The notes beneath the pieces were generated by a model. The model did no database searches. It saw nothing but the letters and a program-made list of their open reading frames with translations, and was not told the DNA's origin. From Chloroflexota bacterium (GTDB taxonomy: Bacteria; Chloroflexota; Anaerolineae; UBA4142), in contig JACRBM010000094.1 in assembly GCA_016219275.1 (NCBI GenBank), positions 1-64,000 of the forward strand: DNA of 64,000 nt, in the 5' to 3' direction. A program made the translations under genes and the position numbers. Below are positions 1,365-49,471 of this stretch, piece by piece. Each line of letters starts with the position of its first letter. Positions within the stretch are counted from its first letter, which is position 1.

Positions 1365-1380
1365 CTAGCATTTCTCATTT

Positions 1381-1453
1381 CACCACTGAGAACACGGAGA
1401 GCATAGAGAAAAAATAAAATGCTCTGTGTCCTCTGTGTGCTCTGTGGTGAAAA
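1381..1453. repeat. Palindromic intergenic repeat, CACCACTGAG...CTCTGTGGTG type
   Basis: The left arm CACCACTGAGAACACGG pairs imperfectly with the right arm ending CTCTGTGGTG, around a centre rich in A and T. The arms consist of variants of CATAGAG and CTCTGTG units. It sits between the thioesterase and the toroid protein gene and resembles, but is not identical to, the 120-bp element at 14981 and 37863. Confidence 0.7.
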
Positions 1454-4861: not shown

Positions 4862-4992
4862 GATTTTGAAATTGGAGATTGGAAGTTGGAGGTTGGAGGT
4901 TGGACATTGGAGACTAGAAAGTAGAAGGTGGACCTGTGCCTAACTTCCAACTTCCAATTACTAATTTCCAACCTCCAATCTCCAATTCCCGA
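4862..4992. repeat. Heptanucleotide repeat palindrome (TTGGAGR)n / (YCTCCAA)n
   Basis: From 4865 the unit TTGGAGA/TTGGAAG/TTGGAGG repeats about six times with a 7-nt period. From about 4943 the complementary units (CTTCCAA, CCTCCAA, TCTCCAA) repeat, so the block can fold into one long hairpin. It fills the divergent region between the ArsR gene and endonuclease V. The same unit family occurs inside the coding gene at 33893-33956. Confidence 0.85.
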
Positions 4993-6722: not shown

Positions 6723-6774
6723 ATCTGCGGGTCACGCGAATCTTGCTATTTATTCGCGTGACTCGCGGATTGTT

Positions 6775-9708: not shown

Positions 9709-9719
9709 TGTAACTCCAG

Positions 9720-9788
9720 GGTTCAAAGTTCAGTATTCCGTATTCAGTTTGCTGGACAACTGAATACTGAATTCTGGATGCTGAGTAC
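9720..9788. repeat. Palindrome of CAGTATTC / GAATACTG units
   Basis: AGTTCAGTATTC and GTATTCAGTT units are followed by their complements (AACTGAATACTGAATTC), giving an imperfect hairpin. It lies between the permease C gene and the ATPase D gene of the peptide transporter. Confidence 0.75.
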
Positions 9789-14491: not shown

Positions 14492-14833
14492 TTATCGCGC
14501 GCGCGACTGTGCGCCGATCCACATCAGCAGACCGGCGAGCAACAAGGTGAGATTGGATACGCCGATCAACCGATAAAAACTGGGAACGCCCAGCATGTAT
14601 ACACCGATGGGAAGGAAGGAGAGGACGGCAACAAGCGCGACCAGGAGAGGGCGCGCCGAGATTACCCCGCCAAGACCGACGATGCACAGGAGGATCATCG
14701 CGCCAGAGACGAGCCAGGTTTGATCGGTAATGCCGGTTTCGCCAAACGGGTTTACGAAAATCAGACTGGTCCACAGCGCGATGGCTAGGACAACGGCAAG
14801 TGCGCCGATCACTTTTCCGGTTTTCAACATCAT
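14492..14833 (-). CDS. Small polytopic membrane protein of unknown function
   Basis: A protein of 113 residues, almost entirely hydrophobic, with four predicted membrane helices (about residues 6-25, 38-57, 60-79 and 84-107). The loops are short; the first outside loop reads NPFGETGITDQTW. I recognise no family motif. It stands alone between the importer operon and the MITE-like element. The second codon is also ATG, so the start may be one codon later. Confidence 0.65.
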   Translation of the reverse strand: MMLKTGKVIGALAVVLAIALWTSLIFVNPFGETGITDQTWLVSGAMILLCIVGLGGVISARPLLVALVAVLSFLPIGVYMLGVPSFYRLIGVSNLTLLLAGLLMWIGAQSRAR

Positions 14834-14980: not shown

Positions 14981-15100
14981 ATAGTTTGGCAATGTCAGAT
15001 TAGCCATAGAGAACATAGAGGGCATAGAGAACTCTTCGTTTTCTTCTCTATGTTCTCTATGACCTCTATGGCAAAGAAGAATGTGACATTGCCAAAATAG
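14981..15100. repeat. 120-bp MITE-like element, copy 1
   Basis: Terminal inverted repeats ATAGTTTGGCAATGTCA (left) and TGACATTGCCAAAATAG (right) flank a palindromic core of CATAGAGAA / TTCTCTATG units. A second copy of exactly the same length lies at 37863-37982 in reverse orientation. By manual alignment it differs at about 13 of 120 positions. No open frame is present. The element lies upstream of a VOC gene and may supply or block transcription. Confidence 0.9.
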
Positions 15101-33238: not shown

Positions 33239-35758
33239 ATGTTAAAAGTCTTGTCGTGGTGGTTGCTCGTCGAACTCATCGGTCTTGCCGTGTTGCCAGT
33301 CGCGTTCCGATTTTTCCGGAATTTGCCGGATCGCGGCTACGCGTTCATCAAGCCGCTCGGCTTGTTGTTGATCGCGTACCCGTTTTGGTTATTGACCACG
33401 TTCGGTTTCCTCACGAACACGCGCGGCGTCATCGCCGTCGTCGCGCTCCTCGTCGCGCTCGCGAGCTGGTTCTTTGTAACGCGACCGCCGAGCGAAAAAG
33501 GCGGTCAGCGGTCGGCGGTCGGCGGTCAGTCTTCGCTTGGCGATTGGTTGCGCGCGAACAAGTCCATCGTCATCGCGACCGAACTCGTCTTCACGGTCGC
33601 GTTTTTCTCATGGGCAATCGTGCGCGCGTACATGCCGGAAATCACCGCGACTGAAAAACCGATGGAGTTTGCGTTCCTCAACGGCGTCTTGCAAAGCGAA
33701 ACGTTTCCACCGCGCGATCCCTGGCTCGCGGGATACGCCATCAGCTACTATTATTTCGGCTACATCATCGTCGCGATCTTGACGATGTTGAGCGGCGTCG
33801 CGTCAAGCAGCGCGTTCAATCTTGCCATCGCGCTCTTGTTCGCGCTCGCGGCGACCGGCGCGTTCGGACTCGCGTACAATTTGATCCAGGGAAGTTTGGA
33901 GATTAGCGACCGGCGGGTACCCCAATCTCCAACCTCCAATCTCCAATCCCTAGTTTCGGCTTTGTTCGCGCCGGTGTTTCTCGTGCTCATCGGTAACCTG
34001 CAAGGATTCTTCGAGTCGCTCCACGCGCTCGGCGTTGGCTCGCGCGAATTTTGGATGTGGTTCGATGTGAAAGGGCTGCTCGAAGCGCCGGTGACCGGGA
34101 CGTTTGCGCCGCAAGATAATTGGTGGTGGTGGCGTTCCTCGCGCGTGATTCACGATGTCGCGCTCGGTCAGACCCAGGAAGTGATTGACGAATTTCCGCA
34201 ATTCAGTTTTCTGCTCGGCGACATGCACCCGCACGTCCTCGCGTTGCCGTTCGTTCTCCTCGCGCTCGCGGTCGCGTTGAACCTCATTCGGAATTCAAAA
34301 TTCGGAATTCAAAATTCAAATCCTGGGTTCCGAATTCCGAATTCCGAATTGCGAATTGCGAATTTTGAATTTTTAATTTATCCTTTAATCCTCGGTGGTT
34401 TGTTCTTCCTCAACTCCTGGGATATTTTGCCGTACGGATTTATTCTCGTCGCCGCGTTTGCGGTAGCGCGCTATCGCGTCGAGCGCGCGTGGAACAGCGG
34501 CGCGATGCGCGACCTCATCGTCTTTATCGTCGCGCTATTTGGCGCAAGCGTGTTGATGTACTTGCCCTTCTACCTGGGTTTTCAATCGCAAGCCGGCGGC
34601 ATTTTGCCGGTGCTGTTCGTCAAGACGCGCTTGCATCAGTACGTGTTGATGTTCGGCTTGTTCGTGTTCCTGCTCGTGTTCCTGGTGGTCGCGTTGATGC
34701 GTGAGCATCGCGGCATCGCGACGCGCGATTGGCTGAATCTCGCCGCGCCATTCCTCGCGGCGCTCGCCGCGTTTCCGCTCGCGATCGCGCTCATCGCGAC
34801 GACTGTGTTCGCGATCAGCCCGGCGGTGCGCGCGAGTGTGAGCGCGGCGGTGCCGGATGCCGGCGGATTGATCGCGGCGTACTTTGGACCGCTGCGCAAC
34901 GAGCCATGGTTGTTCATTCTATTTTTGATTCTGCTTCCCGCGCTGGGCGTCTTGTTACGCGTGCGCGTGTTCGGTGGCGCGTCGGACGATCAGCCGGAAA
35001 CGTTCGCGTTTGACGCGAGCGGCGCGTTCGTGGTGTTGCTCGCGTTGACCGGTTTCCTGCTTACCTTCGGCGTCGAGTTTGCGTACTTGCGCGACCAGTT
35101 CGGCACGCGGATGAACACGGTGTTCAAATTCTACTTTCAAGCGTGGACATTATTCGCGATTGCGTCCGCGTATGCGGTGTTCTATCTCGCGCGCGTGTTG
35201 AACGGCGTCGCGCGTGTCGCGTGGGTGATCGGCTTGACCGGCTTGATGTTGATGAGCGTCGTGTATCCCGCGTTCGCGATTTCGGATCGCGCCGAAGGAT
35301 TCAAAAAAGCGCCGACGCTCGACGGACTGGCGTGGATTCGCGCGACGAATCCCGGCGATTACGCGGCGATGGAGTGGCTGAACGCGAACGCGCCGCGCGG
35401 CGCGGTGATTGCCGAGGCGGTCGGCGGCGAGTACTCCTACGGCAATCGTATCTCGATGGCGACCGGTCTTGCGACGCCGCTCGGTTGGGCGGGGCACGAA
35501 TCGCAGTGGCGCGGCAATTCCCAGTTTTTCAAAGACGATGCGCTCGGCATTGACCGCGCGGGCGACCTCGCGCGTTTGTATCAAACGCTGAGTACGGCTG
35601 AAACGTTGACTTTGCTTGACAAGTATGCTATAAACTTCGTCGTCGTCGGCGGACAGGAACGCGCTCAGTACGGACTCTCCAAATCACAGATGGATAAATT
35701 CGCCAAAGTGATGCAATTGGTGTTTGAAGATGGTGATGTCAGAATCTACGCGCGCTGA
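33239..35758 (+). CDS. DUF2298 'Chlor_Arch_YYY' membrane protein
   Basis: A polytopic protein of 839 residues. It has the DUF2298 landmarks EKPMEFAFLNGVLQSETFPP and YYYFGY (about residues 139-178), then WWWWRSSRVIHD, DEFPQFSFLLGDMHPHVLALPF and NTVFKFYFQAW. The frame upstream to 33029 lies inside the preceding gene, and the true start is the ATG at 33239 after GAGGATTTAGA. Three simple-repeat insertions interrupt it (33501-33534, 33893-33956 and 34285-34384). It is a paralogue of the C-terminal half of the 1532-residue protein. Function unknown, probably sugar transfer across the membrane. Confidence 0.88.
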   Translation: MLKVLSWWLLVELIGLAVLPVAFRFFRNLPDRGYAFIKPLGLLLIAYPFWLLTTFGFLTNTRGVIAVVALLVALASWFFVTRPPSEKGGQRSAVGGQSSLGDWLRANKSIVIATELVFTVAFFSWAIVRAYMPEITATEKPMEFAFLNGVLQSETFPPRDPWLAGYAISYYYFGYIIVAILTMLSGVASSSAFNLAIALLFALAATGAFGLAYNLIQGSLEISDRRVPQSPTSNLQSLVSALFAPVFLVLIGNLQGFFESLHALGVGSREFWMWFDVKGLLEAPVTGTFAPQDNWWWWRSSRVIHDVALGQTQEVIDEFPQFSFLLGDMHPHVLALPFVLLALAVALNLIRNSKFGIQNSNPGFRIPNSELRIANFEFLIYPLILGGLFFLNSWDILPYGFILVAAFAVARYRVERAWNSGAMRDLIVFIVALFGASVLMYLPFYLGFQSQAGGILPVLFVKTRLHQYVLMFGLFVFLLVFLVVALMREHRGIATRDWLNLAAPFLAALAAFPLAIALIATTVFAISPAVRASVSAAVPDAGGLIAAYFGPLRNEPWLFILFLILLPALGVLLRVRVFGGASDDQPETFAFDASGAFVVLLALTGFLLTFGVEFAYLRDQFGTRMNTVFKFYFQAWTLFAIASAYAVFYLARVLNGVARVAWVIGLTGLMLMSVVYPAFAISDRAEGFKKAPTLDGLAWIRATNPGDYAAMEWLNANAPRGAVIAEAVGGEYSYGNRISMATGLATPLGWAGHESQWRGNSQFFKDDALGIDRAGDLARLYQTLSTAETLTLLDKYAINFVVVGGQERAQYGLSKSQMDKFAKVMQLVFEDGDVRIYAR
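33501..33534. repeat. In-gene heptanucleotide repeat (GCGGTCR)n
   Basis: Four GCGGTCA/GCGGTCG units in tandem, preceded by the complementary GACCGCC, lie in the DUF2298 gene. They encode GGQRSAVGGQSS between two membrane segments. The seven-base period matches the intergenic repeats. Confidence 0.75.
33893..33956. repeat. In-gene (YCCAATC)n repeat, same family as 4862-4992
   Basis: GTTTGGAGATT at the left pairs with CCAATCTCCAACCTCCAATCT at the right; the right arm has a seven-base period. The segment encodes SDRRVPQSPTSNLQSLV in a loop of the DUF2298 protein. The same TTGGAGA family fills the gap upstream of endonuclease V. Confidence 0.8.
34285..34384. repeat. In-gene palindrome of GAATTCA / CGAATTG units
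   Basis: The left arm GAATTCAAAATTCGGAATTC and the right arm built from CGAATTC/CGAATTG heptamers form an inverted repeat of about 100 bases, much more AT-rich than the surrounding gene. It encodes NSKFGIQNSNPGFRIPNSEL and continues IANFEFLIY before the next membrane helix. Confidence 0.85.
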
Positions 35759-37535
35759 GAAAATAGTTTTCAACGTGGAAGCCGCGCTGTACGTTGCACT
35801 GTTCGCGCTCGGCTTGTTCGTCCGTCTGCTCGCGCTCGATGGCGCGCCGTTATCGGGCGATGAAGCGCGTCAAGCCCTCGCCGCGTGGAACTGGTTCCGC
35901 GGCGCACCCGACACGTTGACCGGCAGTCCGCTTCTCTTTGCGTCGAACGTGTTGTTGTTCGCATTGTTCGGCGCGGGCGAATTGACCGCGCGTTTTATCC
36001 CCGCGTTCGTCGGCAGTGCGCTGATCGTGTTACCGGCATTTTTGCGCGAGCCGCTCGGACGCGGCGGCGCGTTGATCGCATCAAGCGTGTTTGCGTTTTC
36101 GCCAACGCTCGTCTTTTTCTCGCGCCAAGTGGACGGCGTGATGCTCGCCTCTACGTTCGCGCTTGCCGCGCTCGTGTTTGCGTGGCGCTACCTCAACACG
36201 CGCGTCGCGCGCGATTCCCAGGTTGCCGCGGTGTGCGCCGCGCTCGCCTTTCTCTCCGCGCCGGATGCGTGGACGATTGCGCTCGCGTTGGTGTTGTTTA
36301 CGCTGATGGTACGCGCGGGCTGGGTCGCGCGTTTGGCGCGCGACGACGTGCGTTTTGATCCGGCAGTCACGCGCCAATCAGCGATTCTATTTGCGATCAC
36401 CTTGGTTGGTGTTGCCACGCTTTTTTTGTTTCATCGTTCGGGAATTGGCGCGGCGTTCAATCTGTTTGGAATCTGGCTCGATGGCTGGATGCCGGGCGGA
36501 TCGCTATTCGATCCGTTCCGCGCGTTTGTCGTGTACGATCCGCTCGCGTTGTTCTTTGGCGTCGCCGCGCTGATTGATCTCGCGTTCGCGTGGCGCGTTC
36601 AATCGCGCGAGCGACCGTTGTTGTTCGCGTTCGGCGCATGGGCGCTCGTCGCGTTCGTCCTGTCCGCGTTCTCCGGCGACAAAAACCCGGCGCATCTCGT
36701 CGTGATCGTCGTGCCGTTCGCTTTGCTCGCGAGTTGGTACGTCGGCGCGTGGGCGGAGCGATTGATCGAAGCAATTCGCGTGTCGCCGGGGGCAATCGAA
36801 TTGTTGTTGACCCAGGAAGCGCCGGTGTTGTTTCTGGCGAGCGCAGTGACCGGCTTTATGTATTTGTTCATCGCCGAGTTTACGTTGCGCGGCTCGCTCA
36901 ACGCCGCGGATTCCTTGTCCGTTTTGCTGGGTCGGGGAAGCGGCGCAGAGCTGAGCGGAACGTTCGTCGGCGTGATTGCGTTCATTGGAATTCTCAGCGT
37001 GACGTTGGTCACGCTCGCGACCGTCGGCGTCGAGCGCGCGAAAAATGTCGGCGTGTTTTTCTTGCTGATCGTGTTGAGTGTGTGGACGATTCGACAGACC
37101 GCGCTCGTCAATTTTGTCGGCGCGCCGCACGGCACCGCGCATTTCTTTGGCTTGAATCCGCAAGAGTTGCTGGTGACGCGTGCGACTGCGCCGAACGTGC
37201 GCGATCTGGTGCGCGACCTGGAAACCGCATCGCGTTGGCGCGCGAACGATACGCACGCGCTCGTGTTCGCAATTGATGCGTCGCTCAACCCAGCCGTCGC
37301 GTGGGAGTTGCGCGATTTTCCGTACGCCTTCATCGCGCCGAACCCATCGGCGGCAGATAGTCAAGCCCTCGTGTTGCCGGCAAACGCGCCGGCGCCGGGC
37401 GCGAATTGGATCGCGCAAGCGTACCGCGTGGAAACGACGCGCACACCGCAAGCGAATTTTCTGCGTTGGTTTCTCTTTCGCGATGTCGGCGCGCTCGAGT
37501 CGGAGAATGTCGTGTTGTGGATGCCCAGTCCGTAG
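35736..37535 (+). CDS. GT39/PMT-like membrane glycosyltransferase
   Basis: A GT-C polytopic protein of 599 residues with the acidic motif LSGDEARQALAAWNWFRG (about 38-55), then ELTARFIPAFVGSALIVLP, as in the PMT_2 family. It ends with a small soluble part (DASLNPAVAWELRDFPYAF). The frame can be extended to a TTG at 35724 and an ATG at 35730; all overlap the end of the previous gene by 20-35 nt. I chose the ATG at 35736. Probably the transferase partner of the DUF2298 and Agl23-type proteins around it. Confidence 0.85.
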   Translation: MSESTRAEKIVFNVEAALYVALFALGLFVRLLALDGAPLSGDEARQALAAWNWFRGAPDTLTGSPLLFASNVLLFALFGAGELTARFIPAFVGSALIVLPAFLREPLGRGGALIASSVFAFSPTLVFFSRQVDGVMLASTFALAALVFAWRYLNTRVARDSQVAAVCAALAFLSAPDAWTIALALVLFTLMVRAGWVARLARDDVRFDPAVTRQSAILFAITLVGVATLFLFHRSGIGAAFNLFGIWLDGWMPGGSLFDPFRAFVVYDPLALFFGVAALIDLAFAWRVQSRERPLLFAFGAWALVAFVLSAFSGDKNPAHLVVIVVPFALLASWYVGAWAERLIEAIRVSPGAIELLLTQEAPVLFLASAVTGFMYLFIAEFTLRGSLNAADSLSVLLGRGSGAELSGTFVGVIAFIGILSVTLVTLATVGVERAKNVGVFFLLIVLSVWTIRQTALVNFVGAPHGTAHFFGLNPQELLVTRATAPNVRDLVRDLETASRWRANDTHALVFAIDASLNPAVAWELRDFPYAFIAPNPSAADSQALVLPANAPAPGANWIAQAYRVETTRTPQANFLRWFLFRDVGALESENVVLWMPSP

Positions 37536-37555
37536 GGCTAGAGATGGAGTCAGAC

Positions 37556-37792
37556 ATGGCAATTTCTTCTAATTTGATTGAGCGCATCACGGTCAATCCT
37601 AAACAATGCGGTGGTCGTCCGCGCATTCGCGGAATGCGTATTCGCGTGATTGATGTGCTCGATTTGTTCGCGGCAGGGTTGACGGCAGTGCAGATTCTAG
37701 ACGAAATGCTGGATTTGGAAATGGCTGATCTGCAAGCCGCGCTGATGTATGCGGTGCGACGATTAGATCACCCGCTTCTGGTTGCCGCATAA
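37556..37792 (+). CDS. DUF433 antitoxin-like protein without adjacent toxin
   Basis: A small protein of 78 residues with the DUF433 pattern ERITVNPKQCGGRPRIRG, VIDVLDLFAAGLTAVQILDE and LEMADLQAALMYAVRR. DUF433 proteins are usually paired with DUF5615 PIN-like toxins, as at 44417-45025 in this window, but no toxin gene follows here; the MITE-like element begins 70 nt downstream. GGAG is 6 nt before the ATG at 37556. It may be a solitary regulator, or the toxin gene may have been lost. Confidence 0.85.
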   Translation: MAISSNLIERITVNPKQCGGRPRIRGMRIRVIDVLDLFAAGLTAVQILDEMLDLEMADLQAALMYAVRRLDHPLLVAA

Positions 37793-37862: not shown

Positions 37863-37982
37863 ATAGTTTGGCAATGTCACATTTCTTTTTGCCATAGAGG
37901 GCATAGAGAACATAGAGAAGAAAACGAAGATTTCTCTATGACCTCTAAGTGCTCTATGGCTAATCTGACATTGGCAAAATAG
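37863..37982. repeat. 120-bp MITE-like element, copy 2 (reverse orientation)
   Basis: Same terminal inverted repeats and length as the element at 14981-15100, in the opposite orientation. Manual comparison with its reverse complement finds about 13 differences in 120. It lies between the lone DUF433 gene and the Agl23-NHL gene, ending 13 bases before the latter's ATG. Confidence 0.9.
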
Positions 37983-37995
37983 GCAGGAAGCATTT

Positions 37996-40900
37996 ATGCA
38001 AGTTGAAACCGAACGTCCATCCTTGTTGGATACTCCGTTCCGCGCGTTGTTGAATCTCGATTGGGAACGCGCGCTCATCATCGCGATTGTCGTCCTGGGA
38101 ATTCTGACGCGGCTGTGGGATCTGCCGTACCGCGCGTGGAATCACGACGAAGCGATTCACACCGATTGGTCGTGGAACCTCTACACCGGGCGCGGGTACC
38201 AACACAATCCGATTTATCACGGACCGTTGCTCTACCATCTCACCGCGTTTTCGTTTTTGCTGTTCGGCGATAACGATTTCAGCGCGCGTCTCGCGAACAC
38301 GTTCCTGGGTATGGTGCTCGTCGCGTTGCCGTTCTTTTTCCGCAAGTGGCTCGGACGCAAGGGCGCGCTCGTGACCGCGGCGCTTCTGTTGATTTCACCA
38401 GCGGTGATGTACTATTCGCGTTTCAATCGCCACGATATTTACGTCGAAGTGTTCGTCGTGTTGATGGCGCTGGCGATTTGGAAATACCTGGACGAACGAC
38501 GCGAGCGCTGGCTCTTTGCTTCCGCCGCGTTTCTCTCGCTCGCGTTCACCGCGATGGAGACGACGTTCATCTTTGTCGCGGTCTTTGCGGTGTTCCTCTG
38601 CGCGCATTTCACGTACGAATTTTTGCGCCCGCGCGTCAAGTGGTCGTCCGAATGGCTTGCGCTTGCCTCCGCGATTTTCGGCATCCCGGTGTTTGGTGTG
38701 ATCGCCACGTACAGCGCGGTGCGCGCGCTCACGGTCAAGACGACGGACGAAGACTGGCGCGAGATTCCCAGCTTTGACCTCGCGATGATTTTCGGTACGT
38801 TCTCGATTCCGCTCATCACGCCAGCAGTGATAACGTACCTCCTCAATCCAATTTGGATGATCTTGTTCGCAACTGATTTTCTCCCCGTCTCCGCGTTCAG
38901 CGATCTCAGCACGATCATGTCCATCACGCAATCGCAACCGGACGTGATGTTCCGCGTCATCGCGTTGACCGTGGCGATGGTCGCGTTCTCGGCGCTACTG
39001 GGTTTGACGTGGAACGCGCGCGTGTGGGGGATTGGCGCGGTCTTGTTCTGGCCCCTCTTCGTCGTCTTTTTCACGACGTTCTTTACAAATGGCTCGGGCT
39101 TTTTCTCCGGCTTGCTTGGCTCGCTGGGTTATTGGTTGTCGCAACAAACCGTGCAACGCGGCGGTCAACCCTCGTACTATTATTTGCTCGTGCTGTTGCC
39201 GATGTACGAATTTCTGCCGTACCTCTTTGGTCTCGGCGCGATGTTTTGGTACTGGTACCGCTATCGTCCCGTGCGGCTCGTCGCGGTACTCGTGTGGATG
39301 CTGTGGATCATTTTTTATTACGTCGCGATTCGTCCGTTATTGTTGGGCGTCGCGCCGAATCTTGCCGATCAACTCGTCGTCGCGTTCATCATGCTTCTCG
39401 CGCCGCTGACATTCTTTGCGACGTACGATTCTGAAAAACCCGAAAGTGCGTTTCCGGCATTTCTGTTTGTGTGGACCGCGGGCGTGCTCATCTTGTTCAG
39501 TTGGGCGGGCGAAAAAATGCCGTGGCTCACGATGCACCTGACGATTCCGCTCGCGTTCGTCACTGGGTGGGCACTCGAAAAATTGCTCACGGCGGACTGG
39601 CGCGATTTGCTCGCGCGCGGCGCGGTGTGGCTTGCGCTCCTCATCCCGCTCACTACGGTGTTGTTCGTGATGTTGATCGTGTCCCCGCGTCCGTTTGGAG
39701 GCATGGAACTCAACCAACTTTCCGCGACGAACGCGTTCATCATCGTGCTGTTCATGTTGATCGTGTTCGTCGGTCCCGCGTTCTTCGCCGTCGCGCGACG
39801 ATTCACCGCGACGGAGGTCGCGCGCATCAGCGCGGTCGCGGTGTTGATTCTCCTGACCGGGTTAACGATTCGATTTGCCGCGCTGGCGGTGTTCATCCAA
39901 CCCGATTCGGCGCAAGAGACGATCATCTACGCGCAAGGTTCGCACGACAACGTGACGGCGATGCAAGAGATCGAAGAGTTGTCGCGGCGGCTATGTTCGC
40001 AGACGACGCCGGGTAGAACGCAAGCGGTGCCGTGCGACAACGGCGCGATCAAGGTCGCCTACGACGACGACTCGTCGTGGCCCTTTGTGTGGTATCTGCG
40101 AAATTATCGCAACGCGCAGTACTATGGCGCGAGTCCGAATGCGCCCTTCGACGCGCCGGTTGTGATCGTCGGTTCGAAGAACGAGGAGGCGGTCAAACCC
40201 TGGCTGGGTAGCCGCTACACCAAGCGCACGTACAAACTGATTTGGTGGCCCCTTGAAGGATACAAGGATTTGAACCTCGAACGCGTGGCGAATTATTTCC
40301 GCGAACCGCAACAGCGTTTGGATTTGTTCAACACCTGGTTCTATCACACCTACAAGGAAAACCAGAGCCAGTGGCCCTACGTGCATCTGTTTTCGTTTTA
40401 CGTTCGCAAAGATGTCGCGGCGCTGATGTGGAATTACGGCGGCAATGTGCCGCCGCAACCGCTACCGGAAGACGAGTACACGAAAAAGTTCGTGCGGCTC
40501 GACGCAGCGCGTGTGCTCGGCACGCCCGGCGCGGGCAAAGGTCAGTTCAATTACCCGCGCGTCATCGCGTTTGACGCGCAAGGCAACATGTTCGTCGCCG
40601 ATTCGGAAAATCATCGCATCCAGAAATTCGATGCGAAAGGCGAAATCCTCCTGACCTGGGGCACGAAAAGTCCGGATGGCGTCGCGCCGCCGCCGGGTAC
40701 GTTCAATCAACCCTGGGGTATCGCGGTGGACAAAGCCGGGAACGTGTTCGTTTCCGATACCTGGAATCATCGCGTCCAGAAATTCGACAACAACGGCAAG
40801 TTCCTGACAACCTGGGGTGTGAACGGCGACACGCGCGGGGTCGCGCACGATAGTCCATTGCAGTTCTATGGTCCGCGCGCGATTATGGCGGACGCGCAAG

Positions 40901-46266: not shown

Positions 46267-46988
46267 GCGACCAAGAAATCTTCGCGGACGCGTTGTGGCA
46301 GTTTTATGAAATCGGGCGCGCGGACTTGCGCGTCGAACGCGACGATGGATACGCAAGCATAGAAAATATCGCGTGGTACTTTACGACGCATCGCGAATTT
46401 CTGCCGATTGAAAAAGCCGCGTTGAAATTCGCGCGCGGGCGCGTGTTGGACGCAGGGTGCGGCGCGGGGCGGCACAGTTTGTACTTGCAGAGACGCGGTT
46501 TACGCGTGACCGCGCTGGATGTATCGCCGCGCATCGTCGAGTTGGCGCGCGTGCGCGGGGTGCGCGATGCGAGATGCGCGAATCTTTGCGGCAAACTGCC
46601 GTTGCGCGCGAGCGAATTCGACACGGTCATTTTGTTCGGTAACAACCTGGGAATCTGCGGCACAGTCGCCAAGTTTCGCCGAATGTTGCGCGAGTTGCAT
46701 CGCGTCACGTCGCCACGCGGACGCATTCTCGCGACGACGCGCATGCCGAGCACGACGAATCCATGGCACAAGCGTTACTTGGAACGCAACCTCGGGCGCG
46801 GGCGCGCTCTCGGGCAGATTCGTTTACGACTCATGCTCAATGGTCGGCGCGGCGCGTGGTTCGATTTGCTCTTGCTCGCGCCGACTGATCTAATGCCAAT
46901 CGCGGCGCAAGCAGGTTGGAAAATCGCGCAGGTGTTTGCGGAGGGAAATTTCGAGGACGGTTACTCGGTGGTGTTGGAAAAAATGTAG
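46263..46988 (+). CDS. Class I SAM-dependent methyltransferase
   Basis: A protein of 241 residues with SAM motif I VLDAGCGAGRHSLYLQ, the acidic residue of motif II in TALDVSPRIVELAR, and a later block DTVILFGNNLGICG. It shares the ATGA overlap with the metallophosphoesterase gene, so both are translated together. The substrate is unknown. Its TAG stop lies in the stem of the shared terminator hairpin with the convergent DUF2007 gene. Confidence 0.85.
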   Translation: MSDQEIFADALWQFYEIGRADLRVERDDGYASIENIAWYFTTHREFLPIEKAALKFARGRVLDAGCGAGRHSLYLQRRGLRVTALDVSPRIVELARVRGVRDARCANLCGKLPLRASEFDTVILFGNNLGICGTVAKFRRMLRELHRVTSPRGRILATTRMPSTTNPWHKRYLERNLGRGRALGQIRLRLMLNGRRGAWFDLLLLAPTDLMPIAAQAGWKIAQVFAEGNFEDGYSVVLEKM

Positions 46989-47025
46989 AGACGTTGTGCG
47001 CTACTCGAACGTCTCTACGTTTTTT
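46985..47025. terminator. Shared terminator of convergent genes with a stop codon in each arm
   Basis: GTAGAGACGTT (46985-46995) pairs with AACGTCTCTAC (47008-47018) and is followed by GTTTTTT on the plus strand. The left arm contains the TAG of the methyltransferase gene and the right arm the TAG (read on the minus strand) of the DUF2007 gene. Confidence 0.9.
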
Positions 47026-47242
47026 CCAATAACGCGCGTGCCTCTTCCTCGCGTTCGCGCGGCACGAGCACCTCGACCTGACCCAGCCCATCCACGGTCA
47101 AGCCGATGATGCGTCCGACGCTTTCATACTTTAACATCGCCGGAATCCCGGCGCTTTCCAATTTGTTCTTGATCGTTTCCGCGGTGAGCATTCCCGGCGA
47201 TGTGTAGACGACGACGAGATCATCCTTCGGTTTCGACGGCAT
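47015..47242 (-). CDS. DUF2007 putative signal-transducing protein
   Basis: A protein of 75 residues: DLVVVYTSPGMLTAETIKNK, then LESAGIPAMLKYESVGRI and VEVLVPREREEEARALLE. This is the DUF2007 pattern of a small alpha/beta protein, thought to be a ligand- or partner-binding domain. GGAGG is 6-7 nt before the ATG. It overlaps the end of the trmI-like gene by 23 nt and is co-directional. Confidence 0.88.
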   Translation of the reverse strand: MPSKPKDDLVVVYTSPGMLTAETIKNKLESAGIPAMLKYESVGRIIGLTVDGLGQVEVLVPREREEEARALLEKT

Positions 47243-49067: not shown

Positions 49068-49322
49068 CTACGTATTTTGATCCACCAACGCGAGTTTGCG
49101 CTTGCGCGACATTTGCTTGATCGCGATTTCGCGACGCATCGCCGCGCGCCGCGAGGGCAAGCGTTCGTGATAGATCAATTCGACCGGCAAACGCGTGCGC
49201 GTGTAGCGCGCGCCACGACCGAGTTGATGCGCGCGCACGCGGCGCGTCACGTCGAACGTCCAACCGGTGTAGAGCGTACCATCGGCGCAGCGCAACAGAT
49301 AAATGTAAGCAGATCGTCGCAT
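49068..49322 (-). CDS. GIY-YIG domain protein (UPF0213/YhbQ type)
   Basis: A small protein of 84 residues: YIYLLRCADGTLYTGWT (GIY-YIG signature in its YIY-YTG form), then RRVRAHQLGRGARYTR and YHERLPSRRAAMRREIAIKQ. This is the single-domain YhbQ/UPF0213 type, possibly a nuclease. The long open frame to 49478 is the shadow of the tRNA-Sec gene. The start ATG follows the tRNA-Sec terminator. Confidence 0.88.
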   Translation of the reverse strand: MRRSAYIYLLRCADGTLYTGWTFDVTRRVRAHQLGRGARYTRTRLPVELIYHERLPSRRAAMRREIAIKQMSRKRKLALVDQNT

Positions 49323-49378: not shown

Positions 49379-49471
49379 CGGGAGTGGATGGGAGTCGAAC
49401 CCACCGAAGCCGTATAAACGCCTTCCAGCAGTTTTGAAGACTGTGGAGCCCACCGGGACTCAACCACCCCC
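49379..49471 (-). tRNA. selC: Selenocysteine tRNA (anticodon UCA)
   Basis: A 93-nt tRNA with bacterial tRNA-Sec features. It has an 8-bp acceptor stem (GGGGGTGG with CCACTCCC, one G-T pair), a 6-bp D stem (GAGTCC/GGGCTC) with a four-base loop, anticodon loop CTTCAAA, a long variable arm and a 5-bp T stem. The discriminator base is G. No CCA is encoded; TCG follows. A consensus promoter lies 26 nt upstream. selA, selB and selD are not in the window. Confidence 0.93.

Follow-up and report, generated by a model that had tools for sequence, protein, structure and literature searches.

Two 120-bp stretches that lie 23 kb apart in opposite orientation, and that match closely once one of them is reversed, raise the question of whether the same mobile element was inserted twice, and, in that case, of which enzyme moved it and where its repetitive interior came from. 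The window, that is, the whole 64,000-nucleotide stretch analysed here, is C94:1-64000 of a 6.16-Mb draft genome of a Chloroflexota bacterium (G000). A preliminary description had proposed a transposed non-autonomous element, and had suggested searching for further copies, empty sites and a transposase with matching ends. All three were looked for and found, and target-site duplications, a nested insertion and copy-free orthologous spacers support the same reading. With a probability of roughly 0.83, we consider that each stretch contains a 112-bp MITE whose mobility depends on an IS701-family DDE transposase acting in trans, and that this MITE is chimeric, its core belonging to an independent family of unit palindromes.

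Structure and distribution of the two copies

Both stretches are present and both measure 120 bp. Copy 2 aligns without gaps to the reverse complement of copy 1 with exactly 13 differences, as against the approximate 13 counted by hand. Comparison with other copies delimits the element proper to 112 bp, with 13-bp inverted ends (TTTGGCAATGTCA...TGACATTGCCAAA) and an ATAG duplication on each side (Table 1). The inverted ends reported earlier are therefore real, but the 17 bp attributed to them included the ATAG duplication; the true repeat, on the left of copy 1, corresponds to the first 13 bp of TTTGGCAATGTCAGATTAG. No transposase reading frame is found inside the 112 bp, and an Rfam search of the window returned two tRNAs and no family for the two elements. 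Copy 1 as a whole folds back at -35.5 kcal/mol versus -11.3 +/- 2.4 for shuffled sequences (z -10), and copy 2 reaches a z of -5.5 against its shuffles. The window contains five clusters of strong inverted repeats, two of which are these copies, versus none in five shuffled windows.

Table 1. Positions in the window of the two MITE copies, their parts and a free palindrome of the core type.
Feature	Position	Strand	Remark
Target-site duplication ATAG	14981..14984		left side of copy 1
MITE copy 1, 112 bp	14985..15096	+	
Copy 1 left end TTTGGCAATGTCAGATTAG	14985..15003	+	19 bp identical to both ends of the IS on C105
Copy 1 core palindrome	15003..15072		three 9-bp CATAGAGnn units, loop, three complementary units
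Copy 1 right terminal inverted repeat TGACATTGCCAAA	15084..15096	-	
Target-site duplication ATAG	15097..15100		right side of copy 1
Target-site duplication ATAG	37863..37866		left side of copy 2
MITE copy 2, 112 bp	37867..37978	-	orientation opposite to copy 1
Copy 2 core palindrome	37891..37960		
Target-site duplication ATAG	37979..37982		right side of copy 2
Free core-type palindrome, CACAGAG units	1378..1452		without IS701 ends; independent core-family copy in the window

Targeted searches of G000 gave at least 10 full-length copies, plus partial ones. In a DNA search, copy 2 was recovered with an E-value of 3e-41, a copy on C60 was equally good and one on C62 reached 1e-49; the C62 and C60 copies are 91-98% identical, and weaker matches lie on C47, C71, C91, C38, C66 and other contigs. 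A search with the end pattern found 70 sites in G000 versus 6 for the reversed control. The pattern of end plus core matched in 10 further genomes of 98, among them several genera of the same family, and in G016, which represents a second family of the order, the same ends surround longer cores of a different type (218-252 bp). Two end-plus-core matches outside the order, single ones with three mismatches, are probably due to chance.

The core is repetitive and several contigs terminate in copies of these repeats, two features that could point to low-complexity drift or to an assembly artefact. Against this stand the defined ends with their duplications, the many unlinked copies with different flanks and the occurrence of copies in independently assembled relatives. 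The copies in relatives and the target-site duplications refute such an origin, to which we attach practically no weight, and the earlier dismissal of drift was right.

Insertion traces and the partner IS

Both flanks could be read for 27 distinct elements, and in 20 of these the 4-bp duplication is exact. When the right flanks were permuted (5000 permutations), the share of exact duplications averaged 13% with a maximum of 44%. The duplications seen include GTAG, CTAC, ATAG and GTAA, which account for most of them, as well as CTAA, CTAG, CTAT and TTAT. The central TA is retained, and the duplications are better written NTAN than YTAR, the usual target consensus of IS701, which fits 3 of the 20 exact ones.

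A nested insertion was found at locus L130 of the relative G001, where a MITE copy sits inside the end of a copy of a second family, MITE-2 (...CACCTGA-GTAG-[element]-GTAG-TTAC). Intact MITE-2 copies in G000 read GGCTGAGTAGTTAC at the insertion point, and the empty site is thereby exposed. The same GTAG site of MITE-2 holds an IS701-type end on C99, whose interior matches the right end of the IS found on C105 (see below), and a further IS701-type end on C56. As for the window, copy 2 is absent from the orthologous spacer upstream of the 1128-aa ORF at 37996 in all six relatives compared: this spacer is short and plain in G001 and G004, and contains other palindromic or unit-repeat sequences in the other four. 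Because the window spacer holds an extra small ORF, the comparison shows that copy 2 is missing from this spacer in the relatives, but does not define an empty site to the exact base. This small ORF (37406-37792), lying between two large ORFs, has no counterpart there in the six relatives and may be a separate gain of recent date.

Strong hairpins, mostly intergenic, whose pairing is preserved through double changes could alternatively be functional ones (terminators, mRNA stabilisers or protein-binding sites), immobile and kept by selection at each locus. Both window copies do sit between protein-coding ORFs. However, copy 1 lies between two divergent ORFs (starts at 14833 on the minus strand and 15155 on the plus strand), a location ill-suited to a terminator, copy 2 is missing from the orthologous spacers, and selection for a hairpin leaves the target duplications unexplained. 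An immobile functional hairpin is, in our view, improbable.

The MITE ends recur on a candidate autonomous partner. The IS at C105:95748-97301 spans 1554 bp and is bounded by the same inverted end, here 19 bp long (TTTGGCAATGTCAGATTAG). Its 472-aa ORF matches the IS701-family model NF033540 (E 4.2e-65; 220 bits versus a cut-off of 150) and the Pfam DDE domain PF13546 (6e-41). The contig stops at the end of the IS, whose own duplication is unreadable, and the evidence for 4 bp comes from the MITE copies. This IS is the only near-complete element of its type found in the G000 assembly. The end of C30 carries a fragment of a second transposase, 85% identical to that of C105; within the family, the close relatives of the C105 transposase are fragments, and the others are about 30% identical.

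The 112-bp element thus has the attributes of a MITE: a size between 50 and 500 bp, terminal inverted repeats, no transposase, multiple copies at unlinked sites with duplications, and ends common to an autonomous element (19 bp at one end; at the right end, only about 13 bp are common with the C105 IS). Since the ends are shared, it is most likely the C105 transposase that moves the MITE. The data show that MITE and IS have common ends, that the copies are numerous and flanked by duplications, that one copy is nested in another element and that the core exists separately; on this basis, the following mechanism can be proposed. The transposase would recognise the terminal inverted repeat TTTGGCAATGTCA, which extends to 19 bp in the complete IS, excise the element and insert it at an NTAN site, duplicating 4 bp of the target. 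The core would have been captured, either because it inserted into IS ends or because such ends came to enclose it, and the hairpin that it forms would be a passenger. The whole resembles known MITEs derived from IS of the IS701 family: the transposase scores over the curated cut-off, IS and MITE have common ends, the 4-bp duplication has a central TA, and the MITE is short, multicopy and devoid of transposase. It differs from them in its interior: instead of the remains of an IS, this consists of a palindrome of 9- or 10-bp units that occurs alone elsewhere. MITEs with an IS701 partner are already known as a type; what is new is the chimeric make-up with an exchangeable core.

The core as a separate module

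The CATAGAGAA units that the preliminary description placed in the core are indeed there, but they are not specific to the element and belong to a separate repeat family, most members of which lack these ends. When up to one mismatch is allowed, G000 contains 117 occurrences of the motif CAYAGAGnnCAYAGAG, versus 11 for the reversed control. Among the loci read, there are about 38 core clusters in G000; about 12 have true IS701 ends, an approximate number as the automatic labels of terminal inverted repeats also caught a few decayed or chance matches, and most of the others are free palindromes. Within the MITE family itself, the core may consist of 9-bp CATAGAG or CACAGAG units, of 10-bp units such as CACACAGAAA or, in G016, of the GTCATTGCGA type. 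In 21 aligned IS701-type MITEs, T-A to C-G exchanges occur in every core unit, and paired changes on both sides were counted in 27 cells versus 11.6 after shuffling, the 27 being inflated by the kinship of the copies.

The MITE-2 family offers an independent view of such cores. Its members have ends GTAACTACTCAGCC, are about 140 bp long and reach a high copy number (contigs C15, C26, C33, C40 and C83 of G000, plus L130). An 8-bp duplication was found in six cases, five of them exact (including one in G001) and the sixth with one mismatch. GTAA ends with an 8-bp duplication, which are typical of the IS66 family, suggest that MITE-2 is IS66-like. The MITE-2 cores are of the same design, with ACGCGAATT units and TCATTTCGAGCG, and with GTCATTGCGAGCG in G001. 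As the IS701-type MITE and MITE-2 both carry such cores, two unrelated IS shells share one pool of hairpin cores.

This raises the possibility that the MITE spreads by a general process acting on unit palindromes, for instance one in which GxxExxY or a host nuclease processes a hairpin intermediate, and that its TTTGGCAATGTCA ends are incidental. In favour of this, the majority of core palindromes are without IS701 ends, and at orthologous spacers unit palindromes lacking such ends are gained and lost. It is nevertheless at IS701-type ends that the 4-bp duplications are exactly positioned, and the breakpoints of the nested insertion at L130 fall at the same ends. A general process is therefore disfavoured, and we regard it as unlikely for the MITE, for which transposition by an IS701-family enzyme is preferred.

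The window also contains further gene-less palindromes made up of short units (2672-2754, 4865-4990, 6723-6770 and 9717-9783); that at 4865-4990 has the TTGGAAG unit also seen in the arms around a 23S-IVP gene on C40. A strong palindrome at 46974-47029 (TTGGAAAAAATGTAGAGACGTT), with arms 95% complementary, is of a different type. At 34286-34371, a unit palindrome of the AATTCGGAATTC type lies in frame within a 909-aa ORF, whose ortholog in G004 is about 14 residues shorter at this point and whose other orthologs have differing, partly unit-like peptides. Rickettsia palindromic elements, reviewed together with prokaryotic MITEs (PMC10969869), are likewise dispersed palindromes that sometimes occur in frame in genes. 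By their description, they differ in measuring about 150 bp, and they are not known to consist of tandem 9-bp units with IS701 ends. By inspection, the REP/RAYT tag (GTAG or CGTC, on a 20-40-bp palindrome) is absent from the core units.

Matched arms around small genes

Half cores are also found on either side of genes. On C21 and C54, they flank GxxExxY genes; the C21 protein matches TIGR04256 (E 4.9e-41) and its gene is flanked by the unit layout of the core (GCCATAGAGnnCATAGAGnnCATAGAGnAAAA). In G000, inverted arms exceed all 300 shuffles at 8 of 11 PF13366 loci, two of the exceptions being domains within one 301-aa ORF. The arm units vary from gene to gene (CGCAGAGGG, CACAGAGGG, ACACAGATAA, ACGCGAATT, ACGCAGACAA, CACAGATTT), while the two arms of each gene match. 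Beyond this genome, 61 of 77 usable GxxExxY loci from named genomes exceed all 100 shuffles; the set comprises a Methanophagales archaeon, Thermodesulfobacteriota, Planctomycetota, Chloroflexota, Bacteroidota, Acidobacteriota, Verrucomicrobiota and others. Both flanks carry three or more CRCRGAG units, inverted relative to each other, at 48 GxxExxY loci, versus 6 in the wrong orientation and 0 of 63 when the flanks were displaced by 700 bp. For the first two unit spacings, the left arm matches the right one in 67% of cases versus 17% after permutation (maximum 38%).

Arms around 23S-IVP genes (PF05635) beat all shuffles at 4 of the 5 G000 loci over the cut-off and at 0 of the 3 below it, and at 16 of 25 loci across the phylum. 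Swapping upstream and downstream flanks left 36 of 77 GxxExxY loci above the 95% point and 17 above the 99% point, and 2 of 25 23S-IVP loci above the 99% point; this control is weak because the units recur between loci, and is weakest for 23S-IVP, so that dinucleotide shuffles, displaced flanks and the spacing test were used instead. The eight plasmid records with GxxExxY, all below 60% identity, contained no near-identical pair for an empty-site comparison. At GIY-YIG genes of G000, arms were detected in 1 of 3 cases, weakly (1 of 300 shuffles reaches the level), and these genes are possibly a third type with unit arms. One GIY-YIG nuclease gene (L205, G000:C75:33486-33704) lies amid many TCATTTCGACGAGCG / GAGAAATCTCGC palindromes. 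In the window, a selenocysteine tRNA gene (49380-49471; Rfam RF01852) adjoins an ORF with a GIY-YIG domain (49095-49310).

The layout recalls the 23S rRNA IVS elements of Coxiella, in which complementary ends surround an S23 ORF (PF05635; PMC4990558). The gene-bearing relatives of the core similarly have a small ORF of the 23S_rRNA_IVP family between complementary arms, the core itself being ORF-less. They differ in that copies here are intergenic and not in rRNA, that the arms are made of tandem 7-11-bp units, and that GxxExxY genes, a second family, are arranged in this way too. By location, the core is not a 23S rRNA IVS, as the window copies lie between protein-coding ORFs and not in a 23S rRNA gene. 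The short tandemly repeated repetitive (STRR) sequences of cyanobacteria are tandem heptanucleotide repeats. They resemble the tandem 7-bp units in the arms around several 23S-IVP genes, but are described as tandem repeats and are not known to form matched arms at IVP or GxxExxY genes.

Thus, the core family appears to correspond to the arms found around GxxExxY genes, but with no gene between them, which hints at a wider mobile class. Arms that stay matched while unit sequence and spacing change between elements suggest recognition of the folded hairpin, rather than of a fixed end sequence, or else templated repair from arm to arm. It can tentatively be proposed, as an idea with slightly less than an even chance of being right, that the core is one form of an undescribed class of mobile palindromes with a very wide distribution. 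Their two complementary arms, made up of tandem 7-11-bp units, would either surround a small gene, encoding GxxExxY (a PD-(D/E)XK-family protein), the four-helix-bundle 23S-IVP or perhaps a GIY-YIG nuclease, or pair directly as a hairpin without a gene. Recognition would occur via the folded hairpin, and gene-less forms would have been captured repeatedly as MITE cores of unrelated IS families. A literature search whose coverage excluded most subscription journals did not find free unit palindromes, MITE cores and GxxExxY/IVP arms linked; searches on the unit sequences gave unrelated matches only, and one on IS701 MITEs nothing relevant. A paper in which GxxExxY appears treats reverse-transcriptase neighbours and not the gene flanks.

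Taken alone, the MITE is a clear-cut but unremarkable example. The core joins subjects that are usually handled apart, namely dispersed intergenic palindromes, the GxxExxY proteins, which are uncharacterised, and the intervening-sequence protein of 23S rRNA. Should the arms be the ends of a mobile class, a role in element mobility or hairpin processing could be tested for GxxExxY and IVP, the origin of many 'low-complexity' intergenic repeats of environmental genomes would be explained, and MITEs would be modular, an IS shell around an exchangeable hairpin.
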